Positions 1,885 through 19,058 of a DNA stretch of 20,159 nucleotides are shown here, one piece after another. Made by a program: the position numbers and the translations under genes. A model generated the notes under the pieces. That model was not told where the DNA came from. It saw only the letters and a list, made by a program, of their open reading frames with translations, and ran no database searches. Source of the stretch: a virus; the IMG/VR virus record IMGVR_UViG_3300045941_000360, positions 1 to 20,159 of that record; one strand, 5' to 3'. Position 1 is the first letter of the stretch. Every line of letters starts with the position of its first letter.

Positions 1885-4800
1885 CGCAGCGGCTCGACCG
1901 GCGGCGCTCGCGCGGCTTCGCCGAAGAGGGCAAGACGTGCGCTGACCTGGTGGAGGCCTTCGCGCCCGCGATCGACCACGAGTTCATCGTCGTCACCGTG
2001 AACGGCGTCGATGTCCCGCGCGAGTGGTGGCCGAGCGTCACGCCCAAGGAGCACACGACCGTCATCGTTGCCATCGTCCCCGGCAAGGGCGGGGGCGGGA
2101 AGAAGAACGCGCTGGCGTTGATCGCCTCGATTGCGATTGCAGTCGTCGCTCCGGTCGCGGCGGGCGCGATACTCGGGGCATCGGCAGGCACAACGATCGC
2201 GTTCGGGGTCACCTACGGACAGGTGCTCGCCGCCGGCATCGGCATGGTCGCTAACCTGGCGTTGGGCGCGCTCTTCAAGCCCTCGCAGCCGTCGATCTCT
2301 GCCGCGAGCGCATCGACCAGCAGTGCGGGCGCCTCGCCGACTTACTCGCTGCAGGGACAGTCGAACCTGATCGACCCGTTCGGCCCGGTGCGCCGGATCT
2401 TCGGGACGCACCGCATCTGGCCCACTGTCGTCGGCCGCCCGATCGTGGAGGTCTACGGCGACGATCAATACATGACGACGCTCTACGACATCGGGGCGGG
2501 CGACTACGAAGTGTCCGATGTTCGCATCGGCGCCTCGCACATCGGCTACTTCCAGAATGCGAGCTACAACGTTCACCGCAACACCAAGACGCCGACCCTC
2601 TCCTGGTATTGGGGCGCGCGTCACGACGACGCCTATAACCTGAAGCTCTCGAGCTCGGCGTGGAGTCAGGTCGATACCGTCATCGACGCCGGCTACTTCA
2701 TCGTTACGTTCCTGTTTCCGACCGGCATCGCGGCGATCGACCAGAATACCGGCGCGACTCTTCAGAACATCGTCAAGTTCCATCTGCAGTATGCCGACTA
2801 CGGACAGGAGAACTGGCGACCGGTCGAGGGCGCCTATCAGTGGTGGAGTTCGCGCCCGATCAATCAGCCATCGGGAGCGAATGCCGAAGTCAGTGGCGGG
2901 CAGCAGTTGCGTTCCGACTATGACGGCTCCTCACCGAATCCGGACGACTCCGAGGGCAACTGGGGAGGCCCGCCGGACGATGGACAAGGCGGCGACCTGC
3001 GCGTGCCGCGCGTGGGGCCGCGCATAGTCAGGCAACGCACCTATACGAAAACGGACGGCTACCCGGTCGGCGCGACATCGCTCGTGCTGCGCTCGACCAG
3101 CATCACGATGCCTTACGGGTCGAAGTTCGCCCACAACGGCACGACCTATACCGTGAACGGCACGGTGACGACCACGGCACAGTCGCACAGTATCTCGCCG
3201 CCGCTGCAGACGGAAATCATCACGCAGGTATGGCTCGTTACGACGGGCGAGGACGGAGGGGAGAGCGAAACATACGCATCGCCGCCTCTGGTCACGCTCT
3301 ACGATACCAGCGGCGCCTACGAGGTCCGCGACTCGCGCATCCAGCAACTGGCGCTCTCGGTCTCGGTGCGCCCGGTCTACGATTCATGGGTAGGTGGCAA
3401 GCGTTACTCCATCCGCGCCATGCAGACGATGGGGGCCGGCGACGACCGCACGACCTACGGCGACATGCTGCTCGCGAGCGTGACGACGATCCTCGGCAAC
3501 GTGCCCACCATCAACCTGCGAAACGAGCACACGCTCCTCGAGCTCCGCGTGAAGGCCAACGACCAGGTGAGCGGCGTCCTGGAGGAGCTCTCGTGCTTCG
3601 CGCAGTCGTATCTCACGGTCTATCGGGCCGGGGCGTGGCGCTACGAAATCTCCAACAATCCCGCCTGGTGTCTGCTCGAGGTGCTGCGCGGGAAGATGAA
3701 CAAGCGCCCCATAGCGGACGCCAAGATCGACTGGCAGAGCTTCATCGACTGGGCCGACTACTGCGACTCCACGCACCCGGCGACGGGACAGATGCGCGCC
3801 AAGTTCGATCACGTCGTCGATTACAACACGACGATCTTCGCTCTGGCCCAGACGATCACGGCGAGCGGGCGCGCGACGCTTACGCCCGGCGACGGGAAGC
3901 TGCGCGTCATCATCGATCAGCCGAAGTCCACGCCTGTGCAGGTATTCACGCCGCACAACTCCAGAAGCTTCAGCGGGACGCGCACCTTCATCGAGGCGCC
4001 GCACGGCTTCCGCGCGAAGTTCATGAACCGGCACACCTGGAAGATCGAGGAGTTCGTCGTCTACAACGACGGCTATGACTTCAGCAACGCAGCCGTATTC
4101 GAGCAGATCGAGTTCCCCGGCGTCACGCGCGACTACCAGGTCTGGTGCGACGCGCGCTACCGCATGGCGCAGGCCATCCATCGCCAGGAGACGTGGACGC
4201 TCGACGTGGACCTGGAGAACTTGATCTGCACGCGCGGCGATCTCGTTCACGTCGCGCACGACGTGCCGATGCTCGGCGGACTCCCCTCGCGCATCAAGGA
4301 TGTCGTCTACAGCGGGAACGTCGCCGTTCAGTGGACGCTGACCGAGCCCGTGGACTTCGGCGGGAATCCGGGCGCCTACGGCTTCACGATGCGCTCGATC
4401 GCTGGCGTCATCCAGCAGGGGCAGTTTGCCGAGCAGATCGATCCCTACACCGTGCGGCCGGCCGTTCCGATCGGGAACGTCGAGATCGGGGATCTCCATG
4501 TCTGGGGAGAGATGTCGCGCGTGACCTATCCGTTCCTGGTCGCGGCGATCAACCCGCAGCCGGACCTGGCGGCCTCGTTGACGCTCGTTCCCTACGCGGG
4601 CGCGGCGATCCACGGCGCGGACACGGGCGCGATCCCGCCCTACGATCCGGTAGTCGATTCGGACCTGTCGCTGATTGCGCCGCCAGCGATATCGCGCGTC
4701 ACGGTGCTGCAGAAGATCGTCTACGCGAACCGTCGCCCGCTGCTCACTGTGTCATTCGATTGGCGCGACTACGTAGCGCCCACGGCTGTTACCTACGAGG

Positions 4801-6188: not shown

Positions 6189-7306
6189 GTCAATTCGATT
6201 TCGGAACCATCGACCCCAACGTCAAGACAGGGACGCAGCTCGCCTCCGACCTGAATCAGTGGCGCACTGCAGTCCACTCCACCCATGCAGGCGCAGCGCG
6301 GCCCTCCTATGCTTCGCCAGGTATGCTGTGGGTCGATCAGACGAGCGCGTCGGATTGGAAACTGAAACTCGCGACGGCGACCGGCGACACGATCATCGGC
6401 GGGATCAATCCGACGACGAATGTTTCCGTGTCGCGATTCCCTGACGGCACGTTCGCCGCGCCGTCGATTGCGTTCGCGAGCGAGCCGGGATTGGGGATTT
6501 ATAGGTCCGGCCAGGGGTCCATGAATATTGCTGCCAACTTTCTGACGTTAAAGGCTAACGGCAACGGGCACGCATTTATTGATATTCAGAATGATGGCAG
6601 CGGGAAAACGTGTCAGATTCGCAGTTATACAAACACTTCAATGCGCTGGAGAATGATGTTTGGGAACGGCGACGCTGAGTCATCTGGCAATGCTGGTTCC
6701 GATTTTCAGCTAAACCGATTCGGTGACGCTGGCAATGATCTTGGCACTACGCTCTTAATCTTTCGCGCTACCGGCGCGTTCAAAGCGGTGGGCAATCAGG
6801 CCCCAGCAGCCGGAGTTAGTGAGCACGAATTCAACAATAATGTTGATGGCGGCTTGTATGGGCTTCGCGTCAGGAACAGCGCGCCGACTAGTGGTCACGG
6901 AATTCATTTGATGTTGCCGAGCGTGGGCGATAATAGTTCCTGTAATTTCATTACGGGTGCCAACAGCGCGGGATACAGGTTTGGCGTCATGTCAAACAGC
7001 GGCATCTATAACAATCAGTCTGCTAACTCCAACTGGAGCGATGCCAACGTGAAACAGAACATCGTTCCCTCGCCTGATTACACCGCGTTCGTCGAGCAGT
7101 TGCAGTTCAAACGGTTCAGCTACGTGAGCGATCCGACCTACGAAACGGACGACGTTATCGCGCAGGAGCTGGAAGCACTCGATCAATCGCTGGTGACGAC
7201 GGTAGAGGGCACGCGCGCCGTATACAGTCACCGGCTGCAACAACGCATTAATTCCGTGATCCCTAGACTTATCGCGCGGATCAAGGCGCTAGAGGCGAAA
7301 CAATGA
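6185..7306 (+). CDS. Tail fibre protein with C-terminal S74 intramolecular chaperone
   Basis: A 373-residue receptor-binding fibre. The N-terminal 90 residues (start MSQFDFGTIDPNVKTGTQLA) resemble tail-attachment segments; the middle is Gly/Asn/Ser-rich beta structure. From about residue 283 it has the peptidase S74 chaperone: SDANVKQNI with S285, D286 and K290 matching the Ser/Lys self-cleavage centre of endosialidase-type chaperones, then FKRFSYVSD, a QELE segment and a C-terminal helix (INSVIPRLIARIKALEAKQ). The chaperone trimerises the fibre and then cuts itself off before S285. Base use becomes clearly more AT-rich from about 6480 to 7260, suggesting an exchanged receptor-binding module. 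ATG 6185 overlaps the J stop by 4 bases, and an AGGAG site lies at 6174-6178. Confidence 0.85.
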   Translation: MSQFDFGTIDPNVKTGTQLASDLNQWRTAVHSTHAGAARPSYASPGMLWVDQTSASDWKLKLATATGDTIIGGINPTTNVSVSRFPDGTFAAPSIAFASEPGLGIYRSGQGSMNIAANFLTLKANGNGHAFIDIQNDGSGKTCQIRSYTNTSMRWRMMFGNGDAESSGNAGSDFQLNRFGDAGNDLGTTLLIFRATGAFKAVGNQAPAAGVSEHEFNNNVDGGLYGLRVRNSAPTSGHGIHLMLPSVGDNSSCNFITGANSAGYRFGVMSNSGIYNNQSANSNWSDANVKQNIVPSPDYTAFVEQLQFKRFSYVSDPTYETDDVIAQELEALDQSLVTTVEGTRAVYSHRLQQRINSVIPRLIARIKALEAKQ

Positions 7307-13291: not shown

Positions 13292-14290
13292 TTACGCCGC
13301 TTCCGAAGTCAGTTCGGCCGGATAGCCAGGCTTCGGAAGCTCTTTCTTGACTGCTGTTTTCAGGGTGCTGGCGCTCATCGCCTTGGTACCCCGCTCCGCG
13401 GCGAGCATCGCGCTCACCACGACACCGAGCTCCTTGAGAGAGCTCAGACGCTCCCGCGCCTGCCAGCGGTTCCGCGCGTTCTTGATGATCTCGGCCGCGA
13501 CGAAGTAGGGCGTCTTCTCGCCATCAGCCGATACGCCGGTCTGGAAGAGCGCGAGCTTCTCGCGCACGCGCTGCTCGGACCATCCGCCCGTCAGCATCAG
13601 GTACGAAACGGTGTGGGCCTGGGTGGCCTTCAGCACCGGATCGGCGATTCCCTGCCGCGAGCCCTCGCCGACGGACATGGCGAGATCGAGCAGGTTGTTG
13701 TTGCTCCTGATCGCGACGGCCACGTCCACTTCCGACTTGAGCGCGGCCGACTTGTCGCCCGTCTTGACGAGATAGGAAGAAGCGAGCCGGATGATGGTCT
13801 GCTTCGCCTTCGCTTCCGTGACGCCTTCGAGCGTGACCGCGTCGGAAGCGTGCCGGACCTTGACATCGTCCACGGTGGCAATCGCGGTACGGGAGATGCC
13901 GTACACCACCACGTTCGAGAGCGCGTAGGAGGCGATCGCGGAACCGCCCAGCCGGTGCTGGCCGTCTTCCAGCGCGCCGTCGCCGTAGAAGCCGATCGTC
14001 GCGTTGTTGAACTGCCACTGGCCTGCGGTCATCCGCCGGGCGTATTCGCGGGAAAGCTCCGGGCGCCACTCCCGGTTGTGGATGTTGCTGCCCAGAAACA
14101 GGATGGCGCTCGCCCCCGGGGTAAGCGTCAGGATCTCTGTTTCCTTCTTGCCGGTCTTCGCCTTCGCCATGATGTCAGCCGCCAGCTTCTTGTCTTCCGC
14201 GGGCGCCTTCTCGGCCACGGCGCGGATCTCGGCAAGAACCTGATCGGCGACGTTCTCTTTGATGCTCACTACCTTGTTACTACTGTCCAT
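13292..14290 (-). CDS. DGQHRL-motif (ParB-like fold) phage protein
   Basis: A 332-residue protein. A GAGGGA site sits three bases before ATG 14290; a TTG at 14353 would run into the PL promoter and is rejected. The core at about residues 60-140 has NREWRPELSREYARRMTAGQ, then an I-x-F-Y-G-D-G strand and EDGQHRLGGSAIASY. This mirrors the ParB/sulfiredoxin fold plan: Arg, helix, G-x-W, strand, [DG]-x-x-HRL-x-A. The remaining 190 residues are helical (EAKAKQTIIRLASSYLVKTG; WQARERLSSLKELGVVVSAM). DGQHR proteins are often DNA-bound regulators or nuclease-like modules; function here is unknown. It is the first gene after PL, the position of lambda N, and like N is followed by a terminator. Confidence 0.7.
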   Translation of the reverse strand: MDSSNKVVSIKENVADQVLAEIRAVAEKAPAEDKKLAADIMAKAKTGKKETEILTLTPGASAILFLGSNIHNREWRPELSREYARRMTAGQWQFNNATIGFYGDGALEDGQHRLGGSAIASYALSNVVVYGISRTAIATVDDVKVRHASDAVTLEGVTEAKAKQTIIRLASSYLVKTGDKSAALKSEVDVAVAIRSNNNLLDLAMSVGEGSRQGIADPVLKATQAHTVSYLMLTGGWSEQRVREKLALFQTGVSADGEKTPYFVAAEIIKNARNRWQARERLSSLKELGVVVSAMLAAERGTKAMSASTLKTAVKKELPKPGYPAELTSEAA

Positions 14291-14308
14291 AAATCCCTCA
14301 TCGTTGAT

Positions 14309-14345
14309 CTCGAATAGCGTCGAGCACGCGTCGGGCGTGATGCCC
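14309..14345 (-). promoter_or_regulatory. Two hairpins in the PL transcript leader
   Basis: With transcription starting near 14346, the 56-nt leader can fold into two small stem-loops. The first is GGGC-ATCAC-GCCC (14342-14345 with 14333-14336), one base from the 5' end. The second is CTCGA-CGCTAT-TCGAG (14320-14324 with 14309-14313). Both stems are perfect but short (4 and 5 bp). A nut/boxB-like or put-like antitermination role is possible because an intrinsic terminator follows the first gene; the hairpins could also be chance. Confidence 0.35.
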
Positions 14346-14352
14346 TGGCGCA

Positions 14353-14381
14353 ACTATAGGTGGCCCTAAGACCATTGTCAA
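14353..14381 (-). promoter_or_regulatory. Promoter PL of the early left operon
   Basis: On the minus strand the -35 is a perfect TTGACA (14376-14381), the spacer is 17 bases, and the -10 is TATAGT (14353-14358). The expected start is A at about 14346. It lies about 60 bases before the first leftward gene. One operator palindrome covers the -10 and spacer, another the upstream edge of the -35, so repressor binding should shut it off. Confidence 0.85.
14357..14368. promoter_or_regulatory. Repressor operator in PL, site 1
   Basis: TAGGTGGCCCTA, a slightly imperfect 12-bp palindrome (TAGG/CCTA outer halves intact). It overlaps the PL -10 box and spacer. Its centre is 25 bases from that of site 2. 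Confidence 0.7.
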
Positions 14382-15268: not shown

Positions 15269-15463
15269 ATGAGCCGTCAGCTCCGGACCCGTGAGCGTCT
15301 GCATCGCGAGCTCCTCGACCGCCTGGCCGGCAAGCGACCGGTACGCGTCATCGTGATCGACACATTCGGCTGCGGGCACGCCAGGGCGTACAACACCTGG
15401 GTCGATGCCAATGGGCAGAGTCGGTGCGTGATGTGCCGGCAGGCGCGGCGGAAGGCGGCATGA
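15269..15463 (+). CDS. Small cysteine-motif phage protein (64 aa)
   Basis: A 64-residue basic protein starting at ATG 15269, ten bases after the preceding gene, with an AGGTAG-type site upstream. The first half is a charged helix (LRTRERLHRELLDRLAGKRP). The second half has C-G-H (residues about 34-36) and C-V-M-C (52-55), a possible zinc-ribbon-like site, and ends in a basic tail (RQARRKAA). The family is unknown; such short Cys-pair proteins are common early phage genes. Its stop overlaps the VRR-NUC start (ATGA at 15460). Confidence 0.62.
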   Translation: MSRQLRTRERLHRELLDRLAGKRPVRVIVIDTFGCGHARAYNTWVDANGQSRCVMCRQARRKAA

Positions 15464-15855
15464 GGCCAACGCTGCACCAGCGCTGGCAGGCCTGCCTCTT
15501 CCGGGCCGATCCGGCGCCGGTCGTGCCGAAGCGATTCAACCGGCACGAGGAGCAGGGCGTGTTGAATGCCGTGTTGAAGGTGCTGAGCTATCACCCGAAC
15601 GTGGCCTGGTGCGCGCGGTTCAACACTGGAGGTTTCAAGGACGCGCGGGGCCAGTTCGTGCGCTTCGGGTTCGCCGGCTGCTCGGATATTTTGGGTCAGA
15701 TGGTCGACGGCCGCTTCCTCGCTCTTGAGGTCAAGGCTGCGAAGGGCCGTCTTACGGATGACCAGGAGTTCTTTATCGCGAAGGTCCGGGCAAATGGCGG
15801 CGTCTCGGGCGTGGCGAGATCGATCGCGGATGCGCTCAAGATCGTGGAGGGTTAG
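15460..15855 (+). CDS. VRR-NUC domain nuclease
   Basis: A 131-residue protein from ATG 15460. The VRR-NUC/PD-(D/E)XK pattern is clear: EE near residues 31-32, FNTGGFKDARGQFVRFGFAG, SDILG with D76, LALEVKAAKGRL with E90 and K92, then Q102 in TDDQEFF. Stand-alone VRR-NUC proteins of phages cleave branched DNA, for example Holliday junction-like structures, and may stand in for a resolvase or exonuclease. The neighbours are replication genes. It could provide the nuclease partner that RecT lacks next to it, but that is only inference. The next gene starts directly after its stop (TAGATG). Confidence 0.87.
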   Translation: MRPTLHQRWQACLFRADPAPVVPKRFNRHEEQGVLNAVLKVLSYHPNVAWCARFNTGGFKDARGQFVRFGFAGCSDILGQMVDGRFLALEVKAAKGRLTDDQEFFIAKVRANGGVSGVARSIADALKIVEG

Positions 15856-16509
15856 ATGGACGTCGAGTTACCAGAATTCGCAGTCGTCCCGACCAAGCCC
15901 TGCGCGTGCGGCTGCACCACGTTCTGCAACTTCTTCCAGGTCGGCCCCAATATCGGCGGCAAGTGCCGCGACTGCCTGAAGGAAAAGCGCTGGTTCAGCC
16001 GCTTCGAACTGGGCCTTTCCAGGACTGAACGCCGGCGCAAGGGATCGGTCTCGCGAAGCGAGATGCTTGCGCGCTGGGGCCATCGCTGCGCGTGGTGCGG
16101 CATCAGTGCGCATGCGCTCAAGGACTATGGCGAGGAGCTCGTGGACGGCCACATAGTCCCCTATCACACACTGCACAGTCTGCCGGATATCCGCAATCAC
16201 CCAGCGAACATCGTCCCGAGCTGCCACGCCTGCAACGACTTCGCGCACAAGATCGGCAATTCGGAGAGACTCCTGGACCTTTCCATACTGCTACACGCTG
16301 CGGTTGCCTATGCCGCGGGCGTACTGGGGGAACACGAGGATGAGCACGGCGGAGAAACTGACGACGACCCCGGTGCAGTTCGCCCTGAGATACGCCGCCC
16401 TGGGTTGGTCAGTATTCCCATGCCGCGAGAACGACAAGCGACCCTTGGTGGAGCGGGGACTTCACGCAGCGACGACGGATGGGGAGATGATCCAGAAGCT
16501 GTGGCGTGA
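15856..16509 (+). CDS. HNH endonuclease, zinc-ribbon type, long overlap with the next gene
   Basis: A 217-residue protein. Residues 16-40 have a Cys cluster (CACGCTTFC, CRDC) like a zinc ribbon. The HNH region is 78-127: C78-x-x-C81, DGHI with H99, N118, C123-x-x-C126 and N127. HNH proteins beside phage replication genes are usually nicking endonucleases or homing types. The last 56 residues (about 162-217) are unlike a folded tail and are read in another frame inside the start of the primase-polymerase gene, with 170 bases shared. The likely explanation is that an original stop near 16330-16345 was lost; the functional domain ends before residue 160. Confidence 0.8.
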   Translation: MDVELPEFAVVPTKPCACGCTTFCNFFQVGPNIGGKCRDCLKEKRWFSRFELGLSRTERRRKGSVSRSEMLARWGHRCAWCGISAHALKDYGEELVDGHIVPYHTLHSLPDIRNHPANIVPSCHACNDFAHKIGNSERLLDLSILLHAAVAYAAGVLGEHEDEHGGETDDDPGAVRPEIRRPGLVSIPMPRERQATLGGAGTSRSDDGWGDDPEAVA

Positions 16510-18031
16510 GAACCCGCGCGCCAATATCGGCGTGCCTTGCGGGGCCCATTTCTGGGTGCTCGACATCGATCCGCGTCACGGCGGCCACGAGGCGCTCGCG
16601 GCGCTCGAGGATGCGCACGGCGAGATCCCTGAAACGCTGACGGCAAAGACGCCATCGGGTGGCGTTCACTACTACTTCCACCCATCGCCAGATGCGCGCA
16701 ACAGTGCCGGCAAGGTCGGGCCGGGGATCGATGTTCGCGGCCATGGCGGCTATGTCTGCGTTGAGGGCTCGCGCGTCAACGGCTCGGGCTATTCGTTCCA
16801 GGACTGGGACCCGCTCACCGATGGCGTGCCGCAGATCAGCGTGGCACCCAAGTGGCTCACTGACCGGGCATTCGGCGCCGGGCGTCCGAAGAAAGACACC
16901 CCTGACGCAGCGGGTGGCGTAGTCGAGGGGCGCCGCAACGATTTCCTGTCCCGGGAGGCGGGCAAGCTTCGGCGTACGGGGCAGAGCGCTGCGGTGATCG
17001 AGGCGGCGCTGCAGAAAATTAACCTGGAACGGTGCAGCCCGCCGCTCGCCGAGCGCGAGGTTGCCAATATCGCGAAATCGATCGGGCGCTACGAGCTGCC
17101 GGCCGATGAGTTCGCCGCAGTCCGTACGGCGAGCACGATCATGGCGGCGCCGGTTACCCCGGCAAAGTACTGTGTCGAGGGTAGAGTCCCGTGCGGTCTC
17201 GTCATCATCGGCGGCAGGCCCAAGGCGAGAAAATCCTGGTATGCGCTGCAGCTCGCCATTGCGAAAGCGGCTGGCGGTAGGTTCATGCACATGATGGTAC
17301 CGCCATGCCGCGTGCTGTACATTGCGCTCGAAGACAACGACCGGCGCATGCGGCAACGGCTCGAGTTCTTTGGGCTGCAACCTGGGCAGGCGCCCGATAA
17401 CCTGCACCTGGTGTATGAGTGGCCCAGCGGACTCGAGGGCGTGGAAAAGTTAAACCGCTGGATGGACCAATACCCGGACACCGGCCTCGTCATCGTGGAT
17501 GTCTTGCAGCGCTTCCGCGGCGCGCGCGACCCAAAGGTATCGGCCTATGACGGGGACTACCAGACGATGGGGCTATTGCATGGCGTCACCCAACGCCATG
17601 ACGGCATGACACTGCTGGTCGTGCACCATGTGCGCAAGGGCGTGGTGGAGGACCCGGTCGAGGCCCTGAACGGCACCTTCGCCATCGCCGGGGCTGCGGA
17701 TGCCTACATCATTCTGCGAAAGGGCAGCGACAAGGATCAATGGATCGCCCACGTCGACGGCCGGGACTGGGCCTCGTGGGACCACGACTTCCTGTGGGAG
17801 TTCGTGGCGCAGGAAGGCTGGCGCCAGGTCGGGCTCTCAGAGGGCGTCTCGCTCACCCACACACAGCAGGCCATCGTACAGTCGGCCAGGGACGAGGGGT
17901 TCTTGACGCCCACCACGCTCGCCAAGCTGCGCGTCATCAGCAAGCCGGCTGCGCATGAGGCGCTGCAGGCAATCGTCGGCAAGGGCGCAATGCGCGTCTA
18001 CGCCGGCAAGTACTACCCGAACGGAGACTAA
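16340..18031 (+). CDS. Primase-polymerase/helicase replication protein
   Basis: A 563-residue protein from ATG 16340. Residues 10-175 form a Prim-Pol domain: YAALGWSVFPCRENDKRP, the catalytic DID at 75-77 and GGVHYYF at 107-113. A PriCT-like helical section covers about 196-252 (RRNDFLSREAGKLRRTGQSA). Residues 280-470 are an AAA_25/RepA-like ATPase: the Walker A-like GRPKARKS at 292-299 (R where most have G before K), Walker B LVIVDV at 383-388, and VVHHVRKG with two His. The C-terminus (505-563) looks like a winged helix. It should prime and unwind phage DNA in the cell. The iteron region starts 60 bases after the stop, so it may be its origin. It resembles P4-alpha-type fused proteins in logic but not order. 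Confidence 0.88.
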   Translation: MSTAEKLTTTPVQFALRYAALGWSVFPCRENDKRPLVERGLHAATTDGEMIQKLWRENPRANIGVPCGAHFWVLDIDPRHGGHEALAALEDAHGEIPETLTAKTPSGGVHYYFHPSPDARNSAGKVGPGIDVRGHGGYVCVEGSRVNGSGYSFQDWDPLTDGVPQISVAPKWLTDRAFGAGRPKKDTPDAAGGVVEGRRNDFLSREAGKLRRTGQSAAVIEAALQKINLERCSPPLAEREVANIAKSIGRYELPADEFAAVRTASTIMAAPVTPAKYCVEGRVPCGLVIIGGRPKARKSWYALQLAIAKAAGGRFMHMMVPPCRVLYIALEDNDRRMRQRLEFFGLQPGQAPDNLHLVYEWPSGLEGVEKLNRWMDQYPDTGLVIVDVLQRFRGARDPKVSAYDGDYQTMGLLHGVTQRHDGMTLLVVHHVRKGVVEDPVEALNGTFAIAGAADAYIILRKGSDKDQWIAHVDGRDWASWDHDFLWEFVAQEGWRQVGLSEGVSLTHTQQAIVQSARDEGFLTPTTLAKLRVISKPAAHEALQAIVGKGAMRVYAGKYYPNGD

Positions 18032-18090: not shown

Positions 18091-18200
18091 CCCTAACGGT
18101 TAGGGTATACCGACCCTAACGAAAATAGCCCTAAAACGGCCCCTTTTGAGTATGTACACACAACTACCCTAACTGTTAGGGACGTTAGGGTTGGTTAGGG
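18091..18200. repeat. CCCTAAC iteron cluster, candidate replication origin
   Basis: Seven exact copies of CCCTAAC or its complement GTTAGGG occur in 110 bases: 18091, 18099, 18114, 18167, 18175, 18184 and 18194; CCCTAAA at 18129 is an eighth with one change. Four of them form two perfect inverted pairs with a 1-base centre (18091-18105 and 18167-18181). The stretch 18120-18165 between them is AT-richer than its surroundings. It lies in the 214-base gap after the primase-helicase gene. Such clustering beside a replication gene is typical of an origin; an alternative is an operator region for the following genes. No other gene is seen in 18032-18245. Confidence 0.6.
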
Positions 18201-18245: not shown

Positions 18246-18344
18246 ATGAAGCACGACGACGAGGACGACAACACGCCATTCATCGTCCTGGCGGCGATCG
18301 TGGTCATCGTCTCCGCGTTCGTGCTGGCGTGGGTGCTCGCGTGA
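18246..18344 (+). CDS. Tiny single-span membrane protein (32 aa)
   Basis: ATG 18246 opens 32 residues: an acidic start ([10 protein letters not shown]) followed by a hydrophobic segment [20 protein letters not shown] covering the rest. This is an acidic N-terminus plus one membrane helix. The stop TGA overlaps the GTG of the methyltransferase (GTGA at 18341-18344), which supports translation. Its function is unknown; by size it is similar to small phage membrane proteins that alter host membrane complexes. Confidence 0.55.
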
Positions 18345-19058
18345 GAGTCGAGCGCATCGGCGAGGCGACGTTATACCTGGGCGACTGTCTGGAGATTCTG
18401 CCGACGCTCGGCAAGGTCGATGCAGTGATTACCGACCCGCCGTATGGGATTGCGTTTTCGCACCACGGTCAAGACGTGAAAGGCATTGGTGGCGGCAAGT
18501 ATAAAACTGCCTTTGCTGGCCATAAAGTCATCGGTGACGAGAAGCCCTTCGACCCTTCCCCGTGGCTGGACTTTCCCAAGGTAATTCTGTGGGGCGCGAA
18601 CCACTACGGCAGCAAGCTACCGGACGTCGATAAGTGGCTCGTCTGGGACAAGCGGGAGGCCGAGTCATCCCTGTCGTTTGCGGATTGTGAACTCGCATGG
18701 ACGAAACCTTCCAGGCCAAGCGCGCATCTTCCGCCACTACTGGAACGGCATGCTCAAGGCGTCAGAGCGCGGCGAGGCTCGGACCCATCCCACACAGAAG
18801 CCAATAGCCCTAATGGCGTGGTGCATGACGCAGGCGGCCTTGGAACCATACGAGGTATGGCTTGACCCCTACATGGGGACCGGAGGCGCAGGCGTAGCTG
18901 CTACGCAAGCCGGACAGCCCTTTGTCGGCATCGAGATCTATGGGCCTTATTTCGACATCGCCTGCGAGCGGATCGAGAACGCCTACCGGCAGCAGAAGCT
19001 ATTCCCTGAACCCGTGCGCGACGTATACGCGCAATCTACGCTGGACTACGGCACATGA
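18341..19058 (+). pseudogene. DNA methyltransferase (N6-A/N4-C), interrupted by a 1-base frameshift
   Basis: The N-terminal part from GTG 18341 reads [20 protein letters not shown] and has DPPY at residues 32-35 (motif IV), then [20 protein letters not shown]. After 18703 the family text continues in the next frame: [30 protein letters not shown] and motif I as DPYMGTGGAGVAATQ, ending at 19058. The order IV then I is that of beta-class enzymes. Removing one A from the run at 18704-18706 restores a continuous protein of about 238 residues, normal for this phage family; as read, the first frame stops at 18865. It would protect phage DNA from host restriction. No cognate nuclease lies beside it. 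Whether the shift is a mutation, an assembly error or a programmed +1 slip is undecided. Confidence 0.85.

Follow-up and report, generated by a model that had tools for sequence, protein, structure and literature searches.

What is the function of a dense cluster of heptamers that follows a phage replication gene? We addressed this question for a 20,159-nucleotide stretch of viral DNA (positions 1 to 20,159 of IMG/VR record IMGVR_UViG_3300045941_000360; hereafter the window), in which CCCTAAC repeats crowd positions 18091-18200, behind a gene for a fused primase-helicase protein (16340-18031). Judged from its sequence, this array is very probably an iteron-type origin of replication read by the primase-helicase protein. 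Iteron origins are a known kind of origin; here, the probable origin occurs with tailed phages and a RepA-type helicase.

A heptamer array beside the primase-helicase gene

The 110 bases contain seven exact copies of the heptamer and one near copy, four of the exact copies being paired in two 15-bp palindromes, just as an earlier note on this DNA had reported. That note had also placed the array directly after the primase-helicase gene, and indeed it starts 60 bp past the gene end, with the next small open reading frame (ORF) beginning at 18246. The elements of the array are as follows.

18091-18105: palindrome 1, CCCTAAC-G-GTTAGGG, perfect over 15 bp, formed by iterons 18091 (+) and 18099 (-)
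18114-18120, + strand: iteron CCCTAAC, exact copy
18121-18166: relatively AT-rich core of 46 bp between both iteron groups, a candidate unwinding site
18129-18135: near copy CCCTAAA, inside the core
18167-18181: palindrome 2, CCCTAAC-T-GTTAGGG, perfect over 15 bp, formed by iterons 18167 (+) and 18175 (-)
18184-18190, - strand: iteron, exact copy, reading GTTAGGG on the + strand
18194-18200, - strand: iteron, exact copy, reading GTTAGGG on the + strand

The iterons form a left group (+ - +) and a right group (+ - - -), whose net orientations are opposite. Shuffling predicted 0.85 copies of the heptamer in the whole 20 kb, and seven copies were reached in none of 100 shuffles. In 300 sequences as long as the window, generated from a second-order Markov model, the maximum for any 7-mer in 110 bp was two (2 sequences), three (273), four (24) or five (1), compared with seven in the array. 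The window has no CCCTAAC/GTTAGGG outside 18091-18200, and neither does the 66,513-base IMG/VR record that includes the window at 100% identity. A cluster of short direct and inverted repeats that exceeds chance beside an initiator gene is the arrangement of an iteron-type origin.

The guanine-cytosine (GC) content dips locally, from 62% in the window to 48% in the array and 41% in its core, and the GC skew of the containing record showed no clear switch at the array. The array folded better than shuffled sequences (z -3.5 to -3.8), but it did so through the inverted iteron repeats; no other hairpin was recognised in it, and no single-strand initiation (ssi) hairpin was recognised in the window. 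The exact palindrome was uninformative as a marker by itself, because 24 viral stretches have it and none outside this phage has it in a cluster.

The repeats change with the replication module

The containing record (IMGVR_UViG_3300045944_000276, L035-L038) carries two related prophages, at about 1-36 kb and 39.6-66 kb, which share ~83% identity over the tail-tip region and carry different replication modules. In the window, the module lies between two genes that related prophages have in common.

15424-15855, + strand: VRR-NUC gene, the left flank, common to related prophages with other replication modules
18246-18344, + strand: 32-amino-acid membrane-like ORF, the right flank, 84% identical in the sister prophage and recognised by eye in L045 and L048

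In this slot, the sister prophage has a VapE-type gene; behind it, CCCACCTAA-type repeats lie on either side of an AT-rich stretch, and CCTAAC is common to these repeats and the window array. The VRR-NUC gene led to three further relatives (L045/L046, L047 and L048/L049). L045 and L048 have a lambda-O-like gene (a label given by eye) with GAAGTGAAGAG repeats inside the gene, and L047 has a helicase-like gene and an O-like gene (by eye) with internal GGGGTT repeats. Among the related prophages, CCCTAAC accompanies only the window-type replication gene, and every other module has its own repeats. Because the repeats change with the replication gene between conserved flanks, they belong to the replication module and not to the downstream genes.

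The internal repeats of the L045 and L048 O-like genes are likely lambda-style origins of their own; GAAGTGAAGAGAAG repeats with 10-bp spacing lie at 8787-8860 in L045 and 8784-8818 in L048. A scan with the small ORF matched only the two already known prophages. Of the 90 stretches matched by a DNA scan with CCCACCTAACCCACC from the sister module, 80 were listed, and among these a related VapE gene is present in none but the sister.

The module exchange also bears on the operator role that the earlier note had allowed. In this reading, the palindromes would bind a phage repressor or activator of the small ORF, the methylase gene and genes beyond it, and would not act in replication directly. 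Two perfect 15-bp palindromes lying between two ORFs, in a window that encodes several helix-turn-helix regulators, would suit an operator. Since sister prophages retain the same downstream genes without CCCTAAC, however, this role is disfavoured. Moreover, the three sigma-70-like promoters called all lie at 14.35-14.85 kb, none near the array, and in relatives the array keeps its position relative to the stop codon of the replication gene and not relative to any gene downstream. We therefore give the operator only a slim chance.

Heptamer and C-terminal domain change together in relatives

The replication gene and the part of it proposed to read the iterons are as follows.

16340-18031, + strand: replication gene, 563 amino acids, with Prim-Pol (residues 15-164), PriCT-1 (191-252), RSF1010-RepA-like AAA_25 helicase (267-434) and a C-terminal winged helix, from Pfam and AlphaFold
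17816-18028, + strand: C-terminal winged-helix domain, proposed iteron reader, from a separate AlphaFold model

The AlphaFold model of the 563-residue protein (mean predicted local distance difference test score, pLDDT, 82.8) matched RecA-fold proteins, and the RSF1010 hexameric helicase RepA (PDB 1olo) had the top target-normalised TM-score among the matches listed (TMt 0.68), a likeness of fold only. Modelled separately, along with relatives, the last ~70 residues gave a predicted winged helix with the order H-H-H-E-E (mean pLDDT 83), resembling those of MarR, IclR and Z-alpha proteins (TMq 0.6-0.7), with no match below an E-value of 0.001.

In each of two pairs of relatives, the members differ in their heptamers, and their proteins are at least 98% identical outside the C-terminal domain. 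Prim-Pol, PriCT and helicase are each 99-100% identical between L215 (CGTCACA) and L201 (CGTAGCA), with a C-terminus of 59% identity, and the same three domains are each 99-100% identical between L220 (CGTAACA) and L199 (CGTACCA), with a C-terminus of 76% identity. Within each pair, the two arrays differ from each other in the heptamers along their length but have much spacer sequence in common. In 100 same-heptamer pairs of comparable closeness, C-terminal identity was never below 77%. Read most simply, these comparisons indicate that the heptamer is recognised by the C-terminal winged helix. When protein identity was correlated with heptamer identity in sliding windows, the correlation stayed almost level along the protein (about 0.5-0.76), as shared ancestry would predict, and did not localise the reader; only comparisons of near-identical pairs do so. 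L195 was not counted as a further swap because two heptamers are mixed in its array.

As binder of the array, the earlier note had named the fused protein or a host factor, and the co-change of heptamer and C-terminal domain speaks for the former. At many origins, the binder is host DnaA or a separate initiator such as RSF1010 RepC (PMC4234260), and the CCTAAC common to the sister module and the window would be consistent with an origin bound chiefly by a host factor or a separate phage protein. The heptamers, however, vary between phages, in step with the C-terminal domain of a protein that has its own predicted winged helix. A host factor is disfavoured because phage-specific heptamers would stay unexplained, and we consider any such separate binder very unlikely.

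Repeats beside a replication gene could also form a centromere-like partition site of direct, parS-type repeats. Yet none of the window proteins scanned was identified as ParA or ParB, the phage encodes an integrase, and the identity of the array tracks the replication protein, not a ParB. We consider a partition site highly improbable. As a separate observation, the window gene at 13292-14353 (- strand; phrog_5931, unknown family) shows by eye a ParB/sulfiredoxin-like stretch (DGQHRL).

Arrays recur at the stop codons of related genes

A scan with the primase as a single protein found only the containing record among viral contigs and none among genome contigs. A distant-homologue alignment scan yielded 80 loci, and two further scans added 55. 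Homologues ~27-33% identical to the window protein bear analogous arrays at their stop codons, built from other heptamers. For most groups of close relatives, no heptamer cluster in the locus is stronger than the one that starts within a few bases of the primase-helicase stop codon, and each group has its own heptamer (TGGGACA, CGTAACA, CGGGACA, ACCCCCT, GTATGCA, GCGGTAC, CGTAGCA, CGTCACA, ATAATCG, CGCTACA, TGTAGCA, ATGACGG and GTTGACA). At least five copies of one 7-mer lay near the stop for 68 of the 102 proteins longer than 450 amino acids. We then reduced the relatives to 37 non-redundant representatives (<60% identical) and counted an array where at least five copies start between -12 and +100 of the stop. 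Twelve of the 37, the window included, had one, compared with 0 of 738 other ORF ends listed mechanically from the same loci (Fisher p = 2e-17). Groups of opposite (convergent) orientation surround an AT-rich core in L223, L232 and L265, more plainly in the first two than in the window. The arrays had no Rfam match.

The layout is also present in cultured phages. The p101 gene of Rhizobium phage 16-3 is directly followed by 14 copies of CGTGACA (L283 2513-2880; record positions 56245-56611), and gene and array together span about 54081-56620 of record DQ500118. The array is likely the origin of this classical phage; our literature comparison covered open-access papers, and the text searched mentions no origin for it. 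Idiomarinaceae 1N2-2, Alteromonas XX1924 and Salicola CGphi29 have the same layout. The gene begins with Prim-Pol in Rhizobium phage 16-3 and with TOPRIM in the other three; because genes of both kinds have the array, it tracks the helicase and C-terminal part, not the primase type.

Several arrays have additional features. Hairpins, often with a TTTA-like loop, lie beside or between inverted heptamers in the arrays after L152, L161, L199, L215, L219 and L230, with stems that vary by phage; they are possibly a single-strand priming or loading signal. We do not claim a conserved TTTA-loop hairpin as a shared feature, as it is present in many but not all arrays and that of the window differs. 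Elsewhere, L277 has 19 copies of GAGCGCC in 200 bp (3626-3824), 3.6 kb upstream of the primase stop, and L147 has seven TGTGGAG direct repeats (6481-6570), 0.8 kb downstream of its relative of the window primase. The latter may reflect an origin that moved off the gene, or something else.

In sum, the repeats are linked to the initiator and co-vary with it, as seen in the module swap, the recurrence of arrays in homologues, and the C-terminal and heptamer swaps of relatives. These comparisons indirectly support the earlier note's proposal of a phage origin, and we hold it highly probable that 18091-18200 is the replication origin of this phage, read by the 16340-18031 protein through its C-terminal winged helix. 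Several points weigh against this conclusion. The GC dip at the array is modest, and the window offset (+60) exceeds that of most relatives (about -6 to +34). CCCTAAC itself is seen in this phage alone, because the closest homologues found are only 51% (partial) or 35% identical. Such an array is absent from 25 of the 37 non-redundant relatives, many of which have other ATPase types, and the window's nearest relatives (L144-L149) have none at the stop codon. Finally, the domain-swap evidence comes from relatives, not from the window phage, and comprises two events, not a code.

Comparison with known replicons and a proposed mechanism

In SaPI/PICI (Staphylococcus aureus pathogenicity islands and phage-inducible chromosomal islands) and in the staphylococcal cassette chromosome SCCmec, the gene for the initiator helicase is directly followed by the origin (PMC7581432, PMC6092414). 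SaPI Rep reads iterons through its C-terminal domain (PMC6092414, PMC7581432), and the C-terminal domain of SCCmec Cch2 binds iterons just downstream of its gene (PMC7581432). By analogy with these two proteins, we propose that the C-terminal winged helix of the 16340-18031 protein would bind the CCCTAAC heptamers in both groups and load RepA-type helicase ring(s) head-to-head on both sides of the relatively AT-rich core. The core would then be unwound, the fused Prim-Pol domain would lay the first primers and the host replisome would take over, making the array the actual start site of replication.

The SaPI/PICI-type layout has been stated to be known in no other bacterial replicon (PMC6092414). 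The window resembles it in having the proposed origin immediately 3' of a fused or adjacent primase/helicase gene and two iteron sets around an AT-rich region. It differs in that the iterons are heptamers, the helicase is RSF1010-RepA-like AAA_25 and not of the SaPI Rep type, and the genomes are those of tailed phages and not satellites: the window encodes a TipJ-like tail gene and an integrase, and the sister prophage encodes TerL.

Other systems share parts of this arrangement. RSF1010 oriV likewise combines a helicase of the RepA fold, a primase and iterons, but RSF1010 uses a separate iteron-binding RepC, the RepB' primase and ssi hairpins, whereas here helicase, Prim-Pol primase and predicted DNA reader are fused. 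ORF904 of pRN1 also joins Prim-Pol, helicase and a C-terminal winged helix, with the origin just downstream of the gene (PMC4234260); that origin is a 100-bp stem-loop without iterons (PMC4234260), and the helicase belongs to SF3. Phage P4 alpha is a single primase-helicase protein whose winged helix binds repeats (as described in PMC4234260), but it has a TOPRIM primase, a different ATPase and different repeats. Lambda iterons lie inside the O gene, in contrast to the window array, which lies outside its gene. Fusions with RepA helicase and winged-helix domains are named in a survey of archaeo-eukaryotic primases, which leaves iterons unmentioned (PMC5862659).

More broadly, there is perhaps an even chance that these loci represent a class of phage replicon that is widespread and as yet undescribed, in which a Prim-Pol or TOPRIM primase is fused to an RSF1010-RepA-like helicase and a C-terminal winged helix, and a heptamer array starts at or near the stop codon. 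Winged helix and heptamer would form a matched, swappable pair, giving close phages mutually incompatible origins. The arrays themselves offer a sequence-only route to origins in many phages encoding RepA-type primase-helicases, and they carry over to tailed phages an origin layout that had been described as peculiar to phage satellites. The natural pairs, in which origin specificity apparently switched with a domain of about 110 amino acids, allow direct tests of protein-iteron recognition and origin incompatibility, also in the cultured Rhizobium phage 16-3.

An N6/N4 DNA methylase gene follows the array at 18329-19058. It shows an apparent frameshift near 18705 (frames 18329-18865 and 18678-19058), which is also present in the containing record.
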